Positions 5,040-23,357 of a DNA stretch of 64,000 nt are shown in pieces (position 1 is the first letter of the stretch; the number at the start of each line of letters is the position of its first letter). Below the pieces are notes generated by a model. That model searched no databases. It was not told the DNA's origin and was given only the letters and a program-made list of their open reading frames with translations. This DNA comes from an uncultured Alphaproteobacteria bacterium (GTDB lineage Bacteria; Pseudomonadota; Alphaproteobacteria; Rhodobacterales; Rhodobacteraceae): the NCBI GenBank assembly GCA_913031285.1, contig CAJWEI010000003.1, positions 1 through 64,000 of the forward strand. Reading direction: 5' to 3'. The position numbers and the translations under genes were made by a program.

Positions 5040-6735
5040 CTCTCCTAATTTTGTACCTATGGTTAGGCCTTCTAATATGGCTTCTTCAACTGTCCGCGGA
5101 GTAAGATAGTCTCCAATAACATGATAAGGTAGGTCATTTTGGCACTATAAGTTATCTAGCTCAGCGCTAGATGTATGTCCAAGAGCTGTTAAAAAAGATC
5201 AACCTCGCTCAAAACCACAGAGTGACTGTTAAGCGTATGCTGGAAATAGGCGTCCTCAGCGTCAATTCCTAAGAGCCGGATATGCGAAATGATCTCAACA
5301 CCCAGTTCATGCAAGGTTGCAAGCCAAGCATCAAGGGCATATTGTGGAATAGTCTGACCTGCAGTCATACCATTGACTGCTAAACGAACATGACAGCCAT
5401 TTCGCGCCAATAACTCTGCTATCCCCAAACCAATCCAGTCGCACCGCCAATCAGCTATCACAACGCGACCACCAAAATTCACCTCGCCTTTAGCACCTGC
5501 CGTGCATTTACTACGTGAGCGTCCTCCGCTCCTTGGATCTCAGTGTTATGAGGTACTCCTCCGGTAACAATAACAACGATATCAGGCGCTATTTTTTTTA
5601 CTAAGTTTAAATCGACAGATGCATTAAGGTGCACCGAAACTTGAGCATTTTCCAGTTCACCTTGAAAATTTGTTCTCACGCCGCCAAATTCAGTTCTCCA
5701 AGGAAGTAACAGATCCAGTTTTCTTGACCACCGAGTGCAGTAGATTTTTCGTATAATATTACCTTGTGCCCTCGCTCTGTAGCAATTGATGCAGCTTGCA
5801 TACCAGCGGGCCCACCCCCCACCACTAATACACGCTTTATTGAGCTTGCGCGAATAAGTTTTCCAAACTTTAATTCCCGCCCAGTTTCAGGCTTTTGAAT
5901 ACAAGAAATAGCACAAGCGTTAAGCATGTGACCAATGCACGCTTGTTTACAAGCGACACAAGCTCTAATATTATCTAAATTAACCCGATCAGCCTTATGG
6001 GGCATCTCAGGATCTGAAACAAGGGCTCTTGTCATTCCGCACATATCTGCTTGTCCGCTCCGTAATCTCTCTCTTCTCCTGCCAAACGAACGCCGAGAAC
6101 CATATCCTCATCTGCTCCACGTCTAGCTGCCTTTATGGCTTCATTGAGACACCGCAGCCGTCTAGCGAATGATCCACCATATTTGTCATCTTGACGATTT
6201 ACATTGGGGTTGAGAAACCGACCCAGTAAATAGCCATGTGATGCAACGAGTTCTACACCGTCCAGATCGGCTTATTGTAAATGACCTGCAGATATCTCAA
6301 ACCCTTTTATAATCTCTTCGATAAACTTCACGTGGCATAACGTAGAACCGCTCATTTGGAACCGCTGAGGGAGCGTAAGCTACTGGGTGAGTTCCATCAG
6401 CATTTAGGGTCATTTCCCGACCTGAGTGCGATAGTTGACCAAAAAAAACAACCATAGGGTTAGCAAGCTCTCGCCAAATTTGCATATCCCGGCACACATG
6501 CAGCATCATAGGCTCGGATCGCAGATCCTCCGCTTTCACCAAACACGTGAACGCGCGCTGCCTCAATAATTGTAAGCGCAGCGCCTCCTTGTGCCTTTGC
6601 TCCGCTATAGGCAGACATCTGATTTGTAGCTTTGCTATCGTCAAGCATCACAGCCATATGATCAGTAGAAAGAATTCTATTTTTTAACGTTTTTCCTCGG
6701 AGTTGTAGGGGAGAAAATAGAACGTCTAGCTGTCT
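5040..6735 (-). pseudogene. decayed NADH:flavin oxidoreductase (OYE / 2,4-dienoyl-CoA reductase type)
   Basis: Read on the minus strand, the remnants of one two-domain flavoenzyme appear in order but in different frames. The TIM-barrel start (DVLFSPLQLRGKTLKNRIL) lies near 6730. It is followed by the substrate-side loop FFGQLSHSGRE near 6440, then HGYLLGRFLNPNVN with YGGSFARRLR near 6200, the iron-sulphur motif CVACKQAC with CAISC near 5950, the FAD-binding VVGGGPAGMQAAS near 5800, the NAD-binding half near 5450, and the C-terminal PRTVEEAILEGL near 5080. At least four frame changes, in-frame stops and a missing stretch after the barrel show that it is inactive. Related enzymes reduce enoyl-CoA or demethylate N-methylated amines; the original substrate cannot be decided. 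It lies directly downstream of an intact hydratase-like gene. Confidence 0.85.
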
Positions 6736-6825
6736 AACTATACACTTCGCATAAAATTTTTTTATCTGTAAATGACGAACACAATATCTCTTATAAACAT
6801 AATTCAAATAAAGCTCATACCAAGC

Positions 6826-18580: not shown

Positions 18581-18922
18581 TTAAACCTCGGCCCGTGGAT
18601 ATTTTAGTCCCCATTCTCCCAGGGCCTTTAAGACGGGTTCGAGATCACGCGCTTTTTGCGTTGGAAGATATACCTTTTGGCGCCGGTTTGTTGGATCTAT
18701 ATTTGAAGATAATAGGCCTTCTTGTTCCAACATTCGAAGACGACTGGCCAAAATATTGGTAGAAATTCCTTCTTTAGCATGAAGAAACTCGTTGTAGTGT
18801 CGCTTTTTATTCAACAAGACATCGCGAATAATGATCAGCGACCATCTATCGCCTAAACGGCTTACTGCATCAGCCAACGGGCAAGCACAAATTTTAGGCA
18901 TATTTTCATTACGTTGGGTCAT
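18581..18922 (-). CDS. HxlR family transcriptional regulator
   Basis: The 113-residue protein is a single winged helix-turn-helix of the HxlR type. It has the N-terminal Cys (CACPLADAVSRLGDRWSL), which in some family members senses electrophiles or oxidants, followed by IIIRDVLLNKKRHYNEFLHA, the recognition helix region ISTNILASRLRMLEQEGLL and a wing. It is divergent from the MMPL/LolA-like/barrel operon with a 136-base shared upstream region that holds two direct repeats, so control of that operon is the natural inference. The ligand is unknown. Confidence 0.88.
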   Translation of the reverse strand: MTQRNENMPKICACPLADAVSRLGDRWSLIIIRDVLLNKKRHYNEFLHAKEGISTNILASRLRMLEQEGLLSSNIDPTNRRQKVYLPTQKARDLEPVLKALGEWGLKYPRAEV

Positions 18923-18944
18923 AATACATTTTTTATAAAATTTT

Positions 18945-18987
18945 GACTTGTCTTTTGCAACTTAATTAAATAACTGGCTTTTTGCAA
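18945..18987. promoter_or_regulatory. pair of direct repeats between hxlR-like gene and RND operon
   Basis: Two 16-base elements, GACTTGTCTTTTGCAA at 18945-18960 and AACTGGCTTTTTGCAA at 18972-18987, agree at 12 of 16 positions and are spaced 27 bases apart start to start. They sit between the divergent regulator and transporter genes, where an HxlR operator would be expected. Binding is inferred from position only. Confidence 0.4.
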
Positions 18988-19058
18988 GTAATGGGAATGT
19001 TGATTGGCAGGTTTTCGACAGAAAATTCAGTAAGCAATTTATTAAAAGGTAAAAATTA

Positions 19059-21410
19059 GTGAAAGAAAAAAATGTATTTGGTGAGTTTCTATTAAATAAT
19101 AGAGTTGTGTGCCTTATTGGGTTGTTGATTTTTACTTTATTGGGCGCATCGGGAGGACAATTTCTATATTTTGATAATGATTACAGAGCTTTTTTTGGCA
19201 AAGAAAACCCTCAGTTAAATGCATTCGAGAAGCTTCAACAGACTTATACCCAAGTTGATAATGTTAATTTTGCCTTTGAACCATTAAAGGGCTTGAAGGC
19301 AAACGCACCTGAGGTTTTGGCTGCTGTTGAAGAACTAACTGAAATGGGCTGGCAGTTGCCTTACTCGATAAGAGTAGACAGTCTTTCAAACTATCAACAT
19401 ACAGAAGTAGACGAAGATGACCTTATTGTTCGCGACCTATATTTTGACGCGTTGAATATGGGAGAAGAAGAAAAGAAATTAGTTGAAAATGTGAGTATCT
19501 CTGAACCTTCTTTAGCGGGGCGCGTGCACGATACCGCTCACCGTAGCACTTCGGTCAGCGTAACGGTCCAAATGCCGGGAAAAGATCCACAAGAACTTGT
19601 CGATATCGCGACTGCTGCTAGAAAGATGGTAACAAATATTGAGGAAAAATACCCCGTAAAAATAAGAATGGGCGGAGTTGTCTTCTTGAATAATGCTTTC
19701 CTTGAAGCATCAATGTCTGATTCTGCGACACTGATACCAATGGCCTTTCTTGTCATTTTGCTTATTTCGTATGTTCTTCTAAGGTCCGTTGTGGGCGTTA
19801 TAAATGTCTTCATAGTTTGTATATTGAGCATAATATTTGCTATGGGCTGTGGTGGGTGGATGGGTGTAGGGCTGACTCCTCCGTCGGCATCGGCACCTAT
19901 TATTATTGTAACCTTAGCAGTAGCAGACTCAATTCATTTGTTGGTTTCTGCGCTTAATCGCATGCGGAATGGCTTTACTCAAAGAGACAGTATACTTTAC
20001 AGTATGAGAGTAAATTTTAAGCCGGTTTTCTTGACCAGCGTTACAACAGCAGTCGGATTCCTGTCGTTGAACTTCTCAGATTCACCACCATTTCATGATC
20101 TCGGTAATATATCGGCAGTAGGCGTCATGGCTGCATGGCTTTATTCCGTAACATTACTCCCGATCCTTGTTAGTTTTTTACCACTTGGGAGACCAAAAAA
20201 TACTATAAAAACCTTAGACGCCGTAATGAACCGTTTCGGTACTTTTATTGCTGACCATCATAAGGCAGTTCTGGCTATAGGTGTTGTTTCATCGATCGGG
20301 ATAGTTTCATTAATTCCATTGAATGAAGTAAATGATGATTTTGTTAAATATTTCGATGAGTCCACAGAATACCGCCAAGATGTGGACTGGATTAGTGATA
20401 ATTTGACTGGTGTAAACATTGTCCAATTTAGTTTCCCGTCGGGTGAACCTAACGGCGTAAGTGAGCCTGCATTTTTAAAAAAGGTATCAAGCTTTACCGA
20501 CTGGGCTCGTGCGGAAGATGAAGTTACAAATGTGCTGGCAATTTCAGATATTTTCAAGAGACTTAATCGTGATTTGAATTTAGGAAACCAAGATTTTTAT
20601 ACTGTTCCTGAAAACCGGGAGTTAGCTGCCCAGTACTTACTTCTTTATGAGCTGTCGCTGCCTTTTGGTCTAGATTTGAATAATCAGCTCGATATAAACA
20701 AGTCGTCAACTCAAGTACTGGTGACATTGGAGGATATGACAACCAATGAAATGCAAGCATGGATCAAGAAAGCTGAAAATTTCATATTTGATGACGCAGA
20801 AATAAAGCTGAAGGCCGTTGGTCCAACGGTAATGTTCGCATACATATCTGAGCGCAATATTGAGAGTATGCTGACGGGAACAATAGTTGCTATATTCATA
20901 ATCAGTGGTCTCATTCTGATAGCGCTACGAGACGTTCGACTTGGTTTGATTAGTCTGGTCCCTAATCTTTTGCCGATTGCTTTAGCTTTTGGAATTTGGG
21001 GGCTGTTAGTAGGCCAAGTCAACCTGGCGGTTTCAGTTGTAACAGGATTAGCGCTTGGAATAGTCGTTGACGATAGTGTTCACTTTCTATCCAAATACCA
21101 ACTGGCTCGCAAAGAATTGGGTTTGAACGCTCGAGAAGCGGTTATCTCAGCGTTCACCGCAGTTGGCACTGCGCTTGTGGTGACCACCATTATACTTGTT
21201 GCTGGGTTTTCAGTATTGGCACAATCAACGTTTGGCCTGAATAGTATAACAGCAACTTTGACAGGAATTGCCATTTCCATTGCACTCATTGCAGATTTGA
21301 GCCTTTTACCCGCATTGTTAATTCGATTAGACAAAGACAATGGAGGTTTAGACTCAATTGAACCTGATGCCGAATTACGTTCAGCTGTTCAACCTAACGT
21401 CGCTACTTGA
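19059..21410 (+). CDS. MMPL/RND superfamily transporter
   Basis: The 783-residue inner-membrane protein has two similar halves. Each starts with one membrane helix, has a large periplasmic loop and then a cluster of about five helices, as in MMPL and HpnN-like RND permeases that move lipids or other hydrophobic molecules to the outer membrane. The membrane Asp motifs are present in both halves: LAVADSIHLLVSALNRM near residue 288 and GIVVDDSVHFLSKYQ near residue 669. The start codon is GTG with AAAGG upstream. Its stop overlaps the ribosome binding site of the LolA-like gene, so the three genes form one operon. No membrane-fusion (HlyD) partner is seen, which also fits the MMPL type. Confidence 0.88.
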   Translation: MKEKNVFGEFLLNNRVVCLIGLLIFTLLGASGGQFLYFDNDYRAFFGKENPQLNAFEKLQQTYTQVDNVNFAFEPLKGLKANAPEVLAAVEELTEMGWQLPYSIRVDSLSNYQHTEVDEDDLIVRDLYFDALNMGEEEKKLVENVSISEPSLAGRVHDTAHRSTSVSVTVQMPGKDPQELVDIATAARKMVTNIEEKYPVKIRMGGVVFLNNAFLEASMSDSATLIPMAFLVILLISYVLLRSVVGVINVFIVCILSIIFAMGCGGWMGVGLTPPSASAPIIIVTLAVADSIHLLVSALNRMRNGFTQRDSILYSMRVNFKPVFLTSVTTAVGFLSLNFSDSPPFHDLGNISAVGVMAAWLYSVTLLPILVSFLPLGRPKNTIKTLDAVMNRFGTFIADHHKAVLAIGVVSSIGIVSLIPLNEVNDDFVKYFDESTEYRQDVDWISDNLTGVNIVQFSFPSGEPNGVSEPAFLKKVSSFTDWARAEDEVTNVLAISDIFKRLNRDLNLGNQDFYTVPENRELAAQYLLLYELSLPFGLDLNNQLDINKSSTQVLVTLEDMTTNEMQAWIKKAENFIFDDAEIKLKAVGPTVMFAYISERNIESMLTGTIVAIFIISGLILIALRDVRLGLISLVPNLLPIALAFGIWGLLVGQVNLAVSVVTGLALGIVVDDSVHFLSKYQLARKELGLNAREAVISAFTAVGTALVVTTIILVAGFSVLAQSTFGLNSITATLTGIAISIALIADLSLLPALLIRLDKDNGGLDSIEPDAELRSAVQPNVAT

Positions 21411-21420
21411 GGAGAAAAAC

Positions 21421-22203
21421 ATGAGATTACTTATTGCAGCAGCGATCGCCGTATTATCGAGCTTTTTACTAGTCAGTTCGCATGCTCTTGCAGATAAAGG
21501 CATGGAAATAGCATTGGAAGTTATAAAGCGAGATCAAGGATGGGGTGATACTTCTTCCAAAATGACGATGGTCCTGAAAGATAAATATGGGCAGTCTACC
21601 CAGCGTTCGCTGCGTAATTCGAGTTTGGAAGGATCAAGTGAGGGAGATAAGTCTCTCGTCATTTTTGACACGCCCGGTGACGTTCGCGGCACTGCATTTT
21701 TATCACATACCAAGAAAACAGATACAGATGACCAATGGCTATATCTACCAGCTTTGAAACGGGTCAAAAGAATTGCATCTTCCAACAAAGCGGGCCCTTT
21801 TATGGGAAGTGAATTTTCATTTGAAGATATAGCAAGTCAGGAGATTGAAAAATACACGTACAAATATTTACGTGATGAAAAATATAGTGGTGTAGATTGT
21901 TTTGTAGTGCAGTATGATCCAGTTGACCGAAAAAGTGGTTACTCGTTTCAGGATACTTGGATAGATAAATCCAACTATATAGTGCTTAAAACAGAATATT
22001 ACGATCGAAAAAAATCTCTCTTGAAAACTCTGACTTTCGATGGTTATAAAAAATATAAGGATAAATTTTGGCGCGCAGACACATTTCTCATGGTCAACCA
22101 CCAAACTGGTAAAGAAACTGAATTGAAGTATGAAAATTGGGTTTTTGACACTGGGCTGTCAGAGAAGGACTTCAATAAAAATATGTTAAAGCGGGTCAAA
22201 TGA
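21421..22203 (+). CDS. outer-membrane lipoprotein-sorting (LolA-like) periplasmic protein
   Basis: This 260-residue protein starts at an ATG seven bases after GAGGAG; the frame is open upstream, inside the permease gene, but that part lacks a signal. The signal peptide MRLLIAAAIAVLSSFLLVSS ends in ALA before DKGMEIALEV. The mature part has the LolA/LolB-type open beta-barrel pattern seen in DUF1329-related and sorting proteins: SLVIFDTPGDVRGTAFLS, DDQWLYLPALKRVKRI, SEFSFEDIAS and FWRADTFLMVN. It lacks a lipobox, so it is probably soluble and carries a hydrophobic substrate across the periplasm for the adjacent MMPL permease. The last codons overlap the next gene by four bases (ATGA). Confidence 0.85.
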   Translation: MRLLIAAAIAVLSSFLLVSSHALADKGMEIALEVIKRDQGWGDTSSKMTMVLKDKYGQSTQRSLRNSSLEGSSEGDKSLVIFDTPGDVRGTAFLSHTKKTDTDDQWLYLPALKRVKRIASSNKAGPFMGSEFSFEDIASQEIEKYTYKYLRDEKYSGVDCFVVQYDPVDRKSGYSFQDTWIDKSNYIVLKTEYYDRKKSLLKTLTFDGYKKYKDKFWRADTFLMVNHQTGKETELKYENWVFDTGLSEKDFNKNMLKRVK

Positions 22204-23357
22204 AGGCAGATTTTCTGATATTAATACTTACTGGGGTGATTGCTGCCCAAACTGCAACTGCGGATGGTGAAGTGAATGCTAAGTTGATTGCAGACTTCAG
22301 GTCGTATCCCAACAGCAATGCTGGAACGATAGATAGCGGTCAGTCTCTCGAGCTAAATATTGAAGCATACCAAGATTTCGGTACTGCACGTGGTGTGCTT
22401 GAGCTTGTTGCGCGCATTGACGATCAAGATACCGGCCGACGTATCCTTGATGCGCGTCAGGCTTATGTAAGTACTGAGCTAGGCGGGGTGCAGGTTTATG
22501 TTGGAAATCGACAGGAATTTTGGGGCAAAGCCGAAAGTACAAATATAGTTGACGTCGTTAATCAGAAGGATGCCGCTGCGGATCAAGGTGGCGCTGGAAA
22601 ACTAGGGGCGCCTTCGGTGTCGATTGAAAAATATATGGACTACGGCGATCTTCAGTTTTGGTTCATGCCCAATTTCCGAGAATTGACATTTAATGATGCG
22701 GATGCGCATCCAAGTGGAGAATTACCTGTAAAAGCTGCGCGGTATCAGCGGGCGGAGGGGAAAAATGCAGACGATTTTGCCTTCAGGTTTTCAACTGTTG
22801 TCGATGATTGGGATTTGGCTGGAAGCTTGTTCTATGGAACGGCACGGACCCCAATAATGTCAGTCGTTGATGCGGGAAAGGCTCTGGAGCCATATTACCC
22901 TGAACAAAAATCTGTTGGTCTAGAGGTGCAATATACCGGCGACGCAACTCTTTTGAAATGGGAAAGCTTGCATGGAAAGCAAGATAGCAAAGACTTTTTT
23001 GCAGCTGTGGCTGGCCTGGAATACACCCTTTACGGTGTCTTGAATCAAGTTTGGGATTTAGGGTTGATTGCTGAGGCACAATATGATGAGCGTCCACAAG
23101 CTGCCGCGAAACGTTTCCATGTGGGCGGTTTGCGGGTTACTTTGAATGATGCCGAGGATACCACCCTATTGCTTTTAACCTCACAGGACGAGGCAAAAGA
23201 TCAGTCTCTTATTTCATTTGAAGCATCGCGACGGTTAAATTCATGGTCGAGCATTGATGTTGGTGCAAAGTTTTTTGATGCAAAAACTCCCACTTCGGTA
23301 TTTGGCGTTCTCAATGATGATGATGCGATCAGCGTAAAGCTAAACATGTTTTTCTAG
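22200..23357 (+). CDS. outer-membrane beta-barrel protein of the MMPL/LolA-like operon
   Basis: The start overlaps the previous stop (ATGA), which implies translational coupling. A signal peptide, MKADFLILILTGVIAAQT, ends near ATA before DGEVNAKLI. The mature 365 residues alternate hydrophobic and polar residues in a beta-barrel manner with many Gly, Asp and Tyr turns, and end in KLNMFF, a typical aromatic C-terminus for the BAM insertion machinery. It most resembles DUF1302-type or porin-like barrels found beside MMPL and sorting proteins, but I cannot assign it firmly. Its role as the outer-membrane receiver or exit for the operon's substrate is inferred from context. It overlaps the convergent pepT gene by 18 bases. 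Confidence 0.75.
   Translation: MKADFLILILTGVIAAQTATADGEVNAKLIADFRSYPNSNAGTIDSGQSLELNIEAYQDFGTARGVLELVARIDDQDTGRRILDARQAYVSTELGGVQVYVGNRQEFWGKAESTNIVDVVNQKDAAADQGGAGKLGAPSVSIEKYMDYGDLQFWFMPNFRELTFNDADAHPSGELPVKAARYQRAEGKNADDFAFRFSTVVDDWDLAGSLFYGTARTPIMSVVDAGKALEPYYPEQKSVGLEVQYTGDATLLKWESLHGKQDSKDFFAAVAGLEYTLYGVLNQVWDLGLIAEAQYDERPQAAAKRFHVGGLRVTLNDAEDTTLLLLTSQDEAKDQSLISFEASRRLNSWSSIDVGAKFFDAKTPTSVFGVLNDDDAISVKLNMFF

Follow-up and report, generated by a model that had tools for sequence, protein, structure and literature searches.

The window, a stretch of 64,000 nucleotides, is part of contig C3 of a Planktomarina-like Rhodobacteraceae genome of 3.57 Mb. Its region 18581-23357 encodes an HxlR-family regulator and, divergent from the regulator gene, an MMPL permease, a LolA-like carrier and a beta-barrel protein (Table 1). 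The positions and identities of all four genes had been given in an initial annotation, with which the gene calls agreed. The coupling of the plus-strand genes that it described was also seen: the stop codon of the MMPL gene is buried within the ribosome binding site of the next gene (CTACTTGAGGAGAAAAACATG) and the LolA-like and barrel genes overlap in an ATGA (AAATGAAG). The barrel gene is followed by a convergent peptidase T gene with an overlap of 18 bases, and an amidase gene and a UxaC-family gene, both on the plus strand, are located upstream of the HxlR gene. Because the three genes are enclosed by the peptidase T gene on one side and by the HxlR, amidase and UxaC-family genes on the other, the transcription unit comprises these three genes only. 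A scan for consensus promoters gave matches no better than those in shuffled sequences. Elsewhere in the window, the first 11 kb contain few long ORFs, and three short minus-strand ORFs at 5676-6807 look, by eye, like pieces of one flavin oxidoreductase of the old-yellow-enzyme type; they are probably the remains of a decayed gene.

Table 1 Genes and operator-like sites of the permease-carrier-barrel locus (positions in the window)
Feature	Position	Strand	Evidence and remarks
HxlR-family regulator, 113 aa	18581..18922	-	PF01638, E 1.6e-16; Cys12 and Cys14 near the N-terminus
Putative operator-like site A, CTTGTCTTTTGCAAC	18947..18961		3 mismatches to CTTGCA-N3-TGCAAG
Putative operator-like site B, CTGGCTTTTTGCAAG	18974..18988		2 mismatches to CTTGCA-N3-TGCAAG
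MMPL/RND permease (HAE3-like), 783 aa, GTG start	19059..21410	+	PF03176, E 4e-29
LolA-like periplasmic carrier, 260 aa	21421..22203	+	PF17131, E 1e-65; Sec-type signal, without lipobox
Outer-membrane beta-barrel, 385 aa	22200..23357	+	AF2 model, pLDDT 92; ~18 strands, C-terminal Phe

The permease matched PF03176 with 102 bits (curated cut-off 20.5). Its best match in NCBIfam was the HAE3 model TIGR00921 with 137 bits, which is below the cut-off of 351.9, and membership in the HpnN family was rejected with 109 bits versus a cut-off of 752 (TIGR03480/NF052374). An AF2 model (pLDDT 85.5) strongly predicts 12 transmembrane helices and two periplasmic domains, formed by large loops after TM1 and TM7. 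The solved structures closest to this model in Foldseek were MmpL4, MmpL5, MmpL3, NPC1, NPC1L1 and HpnN, all of which are transporters of lipids or other hydrophobic molecules; AcrB-type pumps gave a weak sequence match. As judged from the model, the permease thus resembles the lipid and hydrophobe transporters (MmpL3/4/5, NPC1, HpnN) and not AcrB. Acidic residues are conserved in TM4 and TM10 (D290, D671 and D672); D671 is, like H675, invariant in all 32 sequences compared, and D290 is kept in 27 of the 32. D290, D671, D672 and H675 are therefore candidates for a proton relay.

The carrier belongs to PF17131 (221 bits, curated cut-off 30). DUF1329 (PF07044) was also matched above its cut-off (32.4 versus 23.1 bits, E 7.8e-8), over residues 65-150 only, and PF17131 fits better. 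Solved relatives in PF17131 are 3bk5 from Vibrio (E 1.5e-90) and 9tp6 from Porphyromonas gingivalis. A match to PF03548, the family of canonical LolA, was not found in the carrier, nor was a LolB-type lipobox, and a lipobox-like motif was seen in one of 36 relatives. The genome contains one PF17131 gene and, on contig C20, a separate gene for a canonical LolA (PF03548), which speaks against a housekeeping LolA role of the carrier.

The barrel was modelled together with 55 relatives, and its fold and compartment are strongly predicted: 54 of the 55 end in Phe or Tyr, like a beta-signal, and the Foldseek neighbours (OmpM1, AlgE, porins, Wzi) are outer-membrane barrels of a general kind. Assignment to a sequence family was less direct. 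No Pfam model reached its cut-off with the barrel, which speaks against a plain DUF1302 or Wzi protein; DUF1302 (PF06980) gave no match at E 0.1 and was matched weakly by two of the 55 relatives. A profile search of the PDB sequences found nothing, and direct alignment of the barrel family with canonical DUF1302 by hhalign was weak (probability 17%). However, a set of intermediate sequences (L113-L125), most of which also adjoin an MMPL gene, aligned to the barrel family over 384 columns with an hhalign E-value of 6e-19, and all three intermediates tested from this set passed the DUF1302 cut-off. Since this alignment is full-length, the barrel is a distant relative of DUF1302 and not a member by the rule of Pfam. 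Of the DUF1302 assignment suggested at the outset, kinship therefore stands and membership does not; a match to a family unrelated to lipid export, which would have spoken against the proposed function, was not found.

To see how the genes are arranged in relatives, the LolA-like protein was searched against one genome per species, and the 80 best matches, a sample biased by this choice, were taken as loci. Among the 61 loci with enough flanking sequence, permease, LolA-like and barrel genes stand together on one strand in 51, and one further locus (L066) has all three in a changed order. Most gene boundaries overlap or abut in the 62 complete loci, although the choice of the longest ORF makes the numbers of overlaps upper estimates. 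The grouping is not due to chance, and separation of the three genes in relatives, which would have argued against a module, is not what was found. Hosts are Pseudomonadota, Desulfobacterota, Bacteroidota, Nitrospirota, Planctomycetota and other phyla. Some relatives have permease and LolA-like genes without a nearby barrel gene, or LolA-like and barrel genes without a nearby permease gene, and in one well-supported clade (L150, L153, L158) MMPL and LolA are fused to single proteins of 1061-1103 aa, followed by the barrel. On a Pseudoalteromonas plasmid (L136:3562-12108), a permease-LolA pair adjoins genes for gamma-mobile-trio recombinases, hinting at mobile spread of the pair. The barrel profile matched 19 of 298 genomes drawn evenly from the same family and 84 of 299 drawn evenly from the phylum, about one third of the latter strongly and the rest mostly as DUF1302-like relatives; within the genus the module was present in four of seven genomes, most of them incomplete. 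Its distribution within the family is patchy. Literature searches of partial coverage retrieved no description of a whole module of the window type. The three-gene system is widespread and little studied, and the copy in the window represents a variant of one lineage rather than a new kind.

The regulator is the part that varies. The window protein matched PF01638 with 60.4 bits (cut-off 20.8) and its gene is directly adjacent to the module, but among 49 scanned neighbours on the upstream side, counting the HxlR of the window, TetR regulators prevail (21), with HxlR (5), LysR (3), MarR (2) and AraC (1) being less frequent. In the permease tree, the window groups with four further Rhodobacteraceae sequences in a clade of full support, and four of these five have an HxlR gene. 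This clade is nested in a group of nine (support 100/99), in which the other four comprise three TetR-linked loci and one with a regulator that was not classified. The HxlR gene of the window clade thus reads as a regulator swap within a TetR-associated clade; L151 is another HxlR case, separate from this one. Within the window clade, the HxlR proteins (L010, L012, L013, L015) keep a CxC or CC pair, and Cys14 of the window protein is as far from the following Gly as the electrophile-sensing Cys11 is in Bacillus HxlR (PMC7835342). The intergenic region contains the repeat CTTGCA-N3-TGCAAG: L013 and L015 have it as a perfect palindrome, and the window has two degenerate copies. A scan of the window's own genome gave eight near-matches elsewhere versus two for a control; the consensus was read off the same sequences that were scored, which makes the p-values optimistic. 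The repeat may be the HxlR operator, and thiol-based control of the operon by HxlR would be consistent with these sequence features. The module had been credited with its own one-component regulator: the adjacency is there, but in this lineage only, most relatives having TetR instead. HxlR control, expected to be informative, is so for the regulator swap more than for the substrate.

Clues to the substrate came from cousins. The module in the window has neither a biosynthetic nor a catabolic gene next to it, and most loci share no neighbour besides the regulator. On a Sulfitobacter plasmid (L141), a complete module is located downstream of a type I PKS with KS, AT, DH, ER, KR and ACP domains, and the annotated genes of L142 are in the same order. 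A reducing PKS gene also precedes the permease-LolA-barrel module in L145:2-9671 (Rhodobacteraceae), and in L143:1-12241 and L147:2-13753 genes for a condensation-type (PapA-like) acyltransferase and a sulfotransferase stand between the reducing PKS and the module. In L155:7082-14204, genes for LolA-like protein, barrel, squalene/phytoene synthase, MPAB oxygenase and MMPL permease follow each other. Apart from complete modules, a 1136 aa fusion of squalene epoxidase and squalene/oxidosqualene cyclase is encoded near a lone barrel of the window-type family (L156:2512-8855), suggesting a sterol or triterpenoid link there. These lipid and terpenoid genes support lipids and hydrophobes as the exported class. 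The permeases linked to a PKS belong to one clade, which is separate from that of the window, and therefore their substrate cannot be transferred to the window copy. Further, neither a squalene-hopene cyclase nor a PKS dehydratase was found in this genome, which makes hopanoids and polyketides unlikely substrates of the window module.

Taken together, we consider it probable, with all steps and the HxlR switch included, that the locus encodes an inducible three-part trans-envelope exporter of a small hydrophobic or lipid-like molecule. The permease would be driven by the proton gradient, as its fold and the acidic residues in TM4 and TM10 suggest, and would extract the substrate from the inner membrane or its periplasmic leaflet. 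The LolA-like protein, whose fold class is given by homology to 3bk5, may then hold the substrate in its hydrophobic groove on the way through the periplasm, and the DUF1302-like barrel would receive it and either insert it into the outer membrane or let it through. The divergent HxlR protein would act at the inverted repeat between its own gene and the operon, probably as a repressor until Cys14 meets an electrophile or oxidant. The conserved gene order, the permease fold, the DUF1302-related barrel, the PF17131/DUF1329-like carrier and the lipid and terpenoid neighbours bear out the earlier view of one trans-envelope module for a lipid or hydrophobe. Of the "complete export route" the three-part module holds, whereas "complete" and "export" are what we infer, so that the interpretation given in the initial annotation is supported in part and, on the whole, mostly correct.

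The same parts could also work inward and move hydrophobes such as alkanes, fatty acids or sterols from the outer to the inner membrane, as NPC1 does with cholesterol in eukaryotes. NPC1 and NPC1L1 are, after all, among the structural neighbours of the permease, and the barrel is as similar to AlgE, Occ-type and Wzi barrels as to any exporter. TOL_3187 of Thalassolituus oleivorans, a protein with MMPL and LolA domains, is up 42-fold in growth on n-C28 alkane and has been discussed as uptake-related (PMC6304351). We nevertheless regard uptake as improbable: the top structural matches are MmpL exporters, and deletion of AmeABCD, a monoterpene efflux system of Castellaniella defragrans, led to lower monoterpene tolerance and higher Nile Red accumulation (PMC6394551), a phenotype that indicates export. 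The links to PKS and terpenoid biosynthesis in cousins fit export as well.

A narrower form of the exporter, overlapping with it, is a pump that serves to detoxify hydrophobes or solvents in general, has no endogenous substrate and is induced by the toxin via TetR, HxlR or MarR. Swappable one-component regulators, the conserved HxlR cysteines, the precedent of AmeABCD and the fact that most loci are without conserved biosynthetic neighbours are in line with this idea, which we regard as possible without preferring it. In several cousins among the Rhodobacteraceae, the neighbouring PKS, sulfotransferase and terpenoid genes point to dedicated endogenous products, and a LolA-like shuttle is, to our knowledge, atypical of drug pumps. 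Very improbable, in contrast, is a paralogous Lol-type route in which the LolA-like protein carries lipoproteins and the MMPL protein or the barrel takes part in their sorting. The LolA-type fold and the database name "outer membrane lipoprotein-sorting protein" would suggest it, but in place of LolCDE the carrier has an RND permease and a barrel as partners, a canonical LolA is encoded elsewhere, and the carrier is without a LolB-type lipobox. P. gingivalis LolA3 interacts with its cognate LolB only very weakly (PMC13103446), and therefore the family name is not evidence of function.

If the exporter is accepted as the preferred reading, one may speculate, with considerable doubt, that it is part of a widespread Gram-negative outer-membrane lipid export, a counterpart of mycobacterial MmpL export, with an RND permease that passes lipids of polyketide, terpenoid or fatty-acid origin on to a shuttle of the LolA type and a DUF1302-like barrel. 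One Rhodobacteraceae clade, with PKS, PapA-like acyltransferase and sulfotransferase, would then export a sulfated polyketide lipid, and the window's clade another envelope lipid under a thiol-sensing HxlR. How hydrophobic products and lipids other than LPS reach the outer membrane of Gram-negatives is largely open, and here the question becomes testable with one operon. The operon is conserved in several phyla; its barrel family lies outside Pfam, and in its carrier family the proteins with solved structures are without a known function. Candidate substrates come from the biosynthetic genes next to the module in cousins, and the larger interest lies in the system and its PKS-linked cousins.

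Compared with known systems, the carrier shares its PF17131 family with LolA3 (9tp6) and Vibrio 3bk5, for which, in the portions of the sources available, no RND or barrel partner is described. The permease has the fold of mycobacterial MmpL3/4/5, but the mycobacterial systems have accessory proteins in place of the Gram-negative LolA-like and barrel partners. PKS, PapA, MmpL8 and a sulfotransferase make up the logic of sulfolipid-1. The cousins L143 and L147, with PKS, condensation acyltransferase, sulfotransferase and MMPL genes in a row, are similar to the sulfolipid-1 locus, unlike the window genome with its missing PKS dehydratase. HpnN has the RND fold, is an HAE3 relative and has a lipid substrate, but the window permease is far below the HpnN cut-offs, its genome is without squalene-hopene cyclase, and HpnN reportedly works with no partner dedicated to it in the periplasm or the outer membrane (PMC6394551). 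In TOL_3187, likened to the window family by its kinds of domains, MMPL and LolA-like domains work together, as is proposed for those of the window; it is a fused, alkane-induced protein, as are, with respect to fusion, those of L150, L153 and L158, whereas the window proteins are separate. The sole characterised analogue is AmeABCD. It differs in its order of four genes (barrel-LolA-AmeC-RND versus permease-LolA-barrel without AmeC), in its full-length DUF1329 carrier versus PF17131 and in its barrel, that of the window being 385 aa long and below the DUF1302 cut-off; the window module, in turn, has an HxlR regulator and is without adjacent monoterpene genes. Like the window, however, AmeABCD encodes an HAE3-type RND permease, a LolA-superfamily periplasmic protein and a DUF1302-type barrel together. 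Its substrate is hydrophobic, as is predicted for the window module, which is a relative of AmeABCD.
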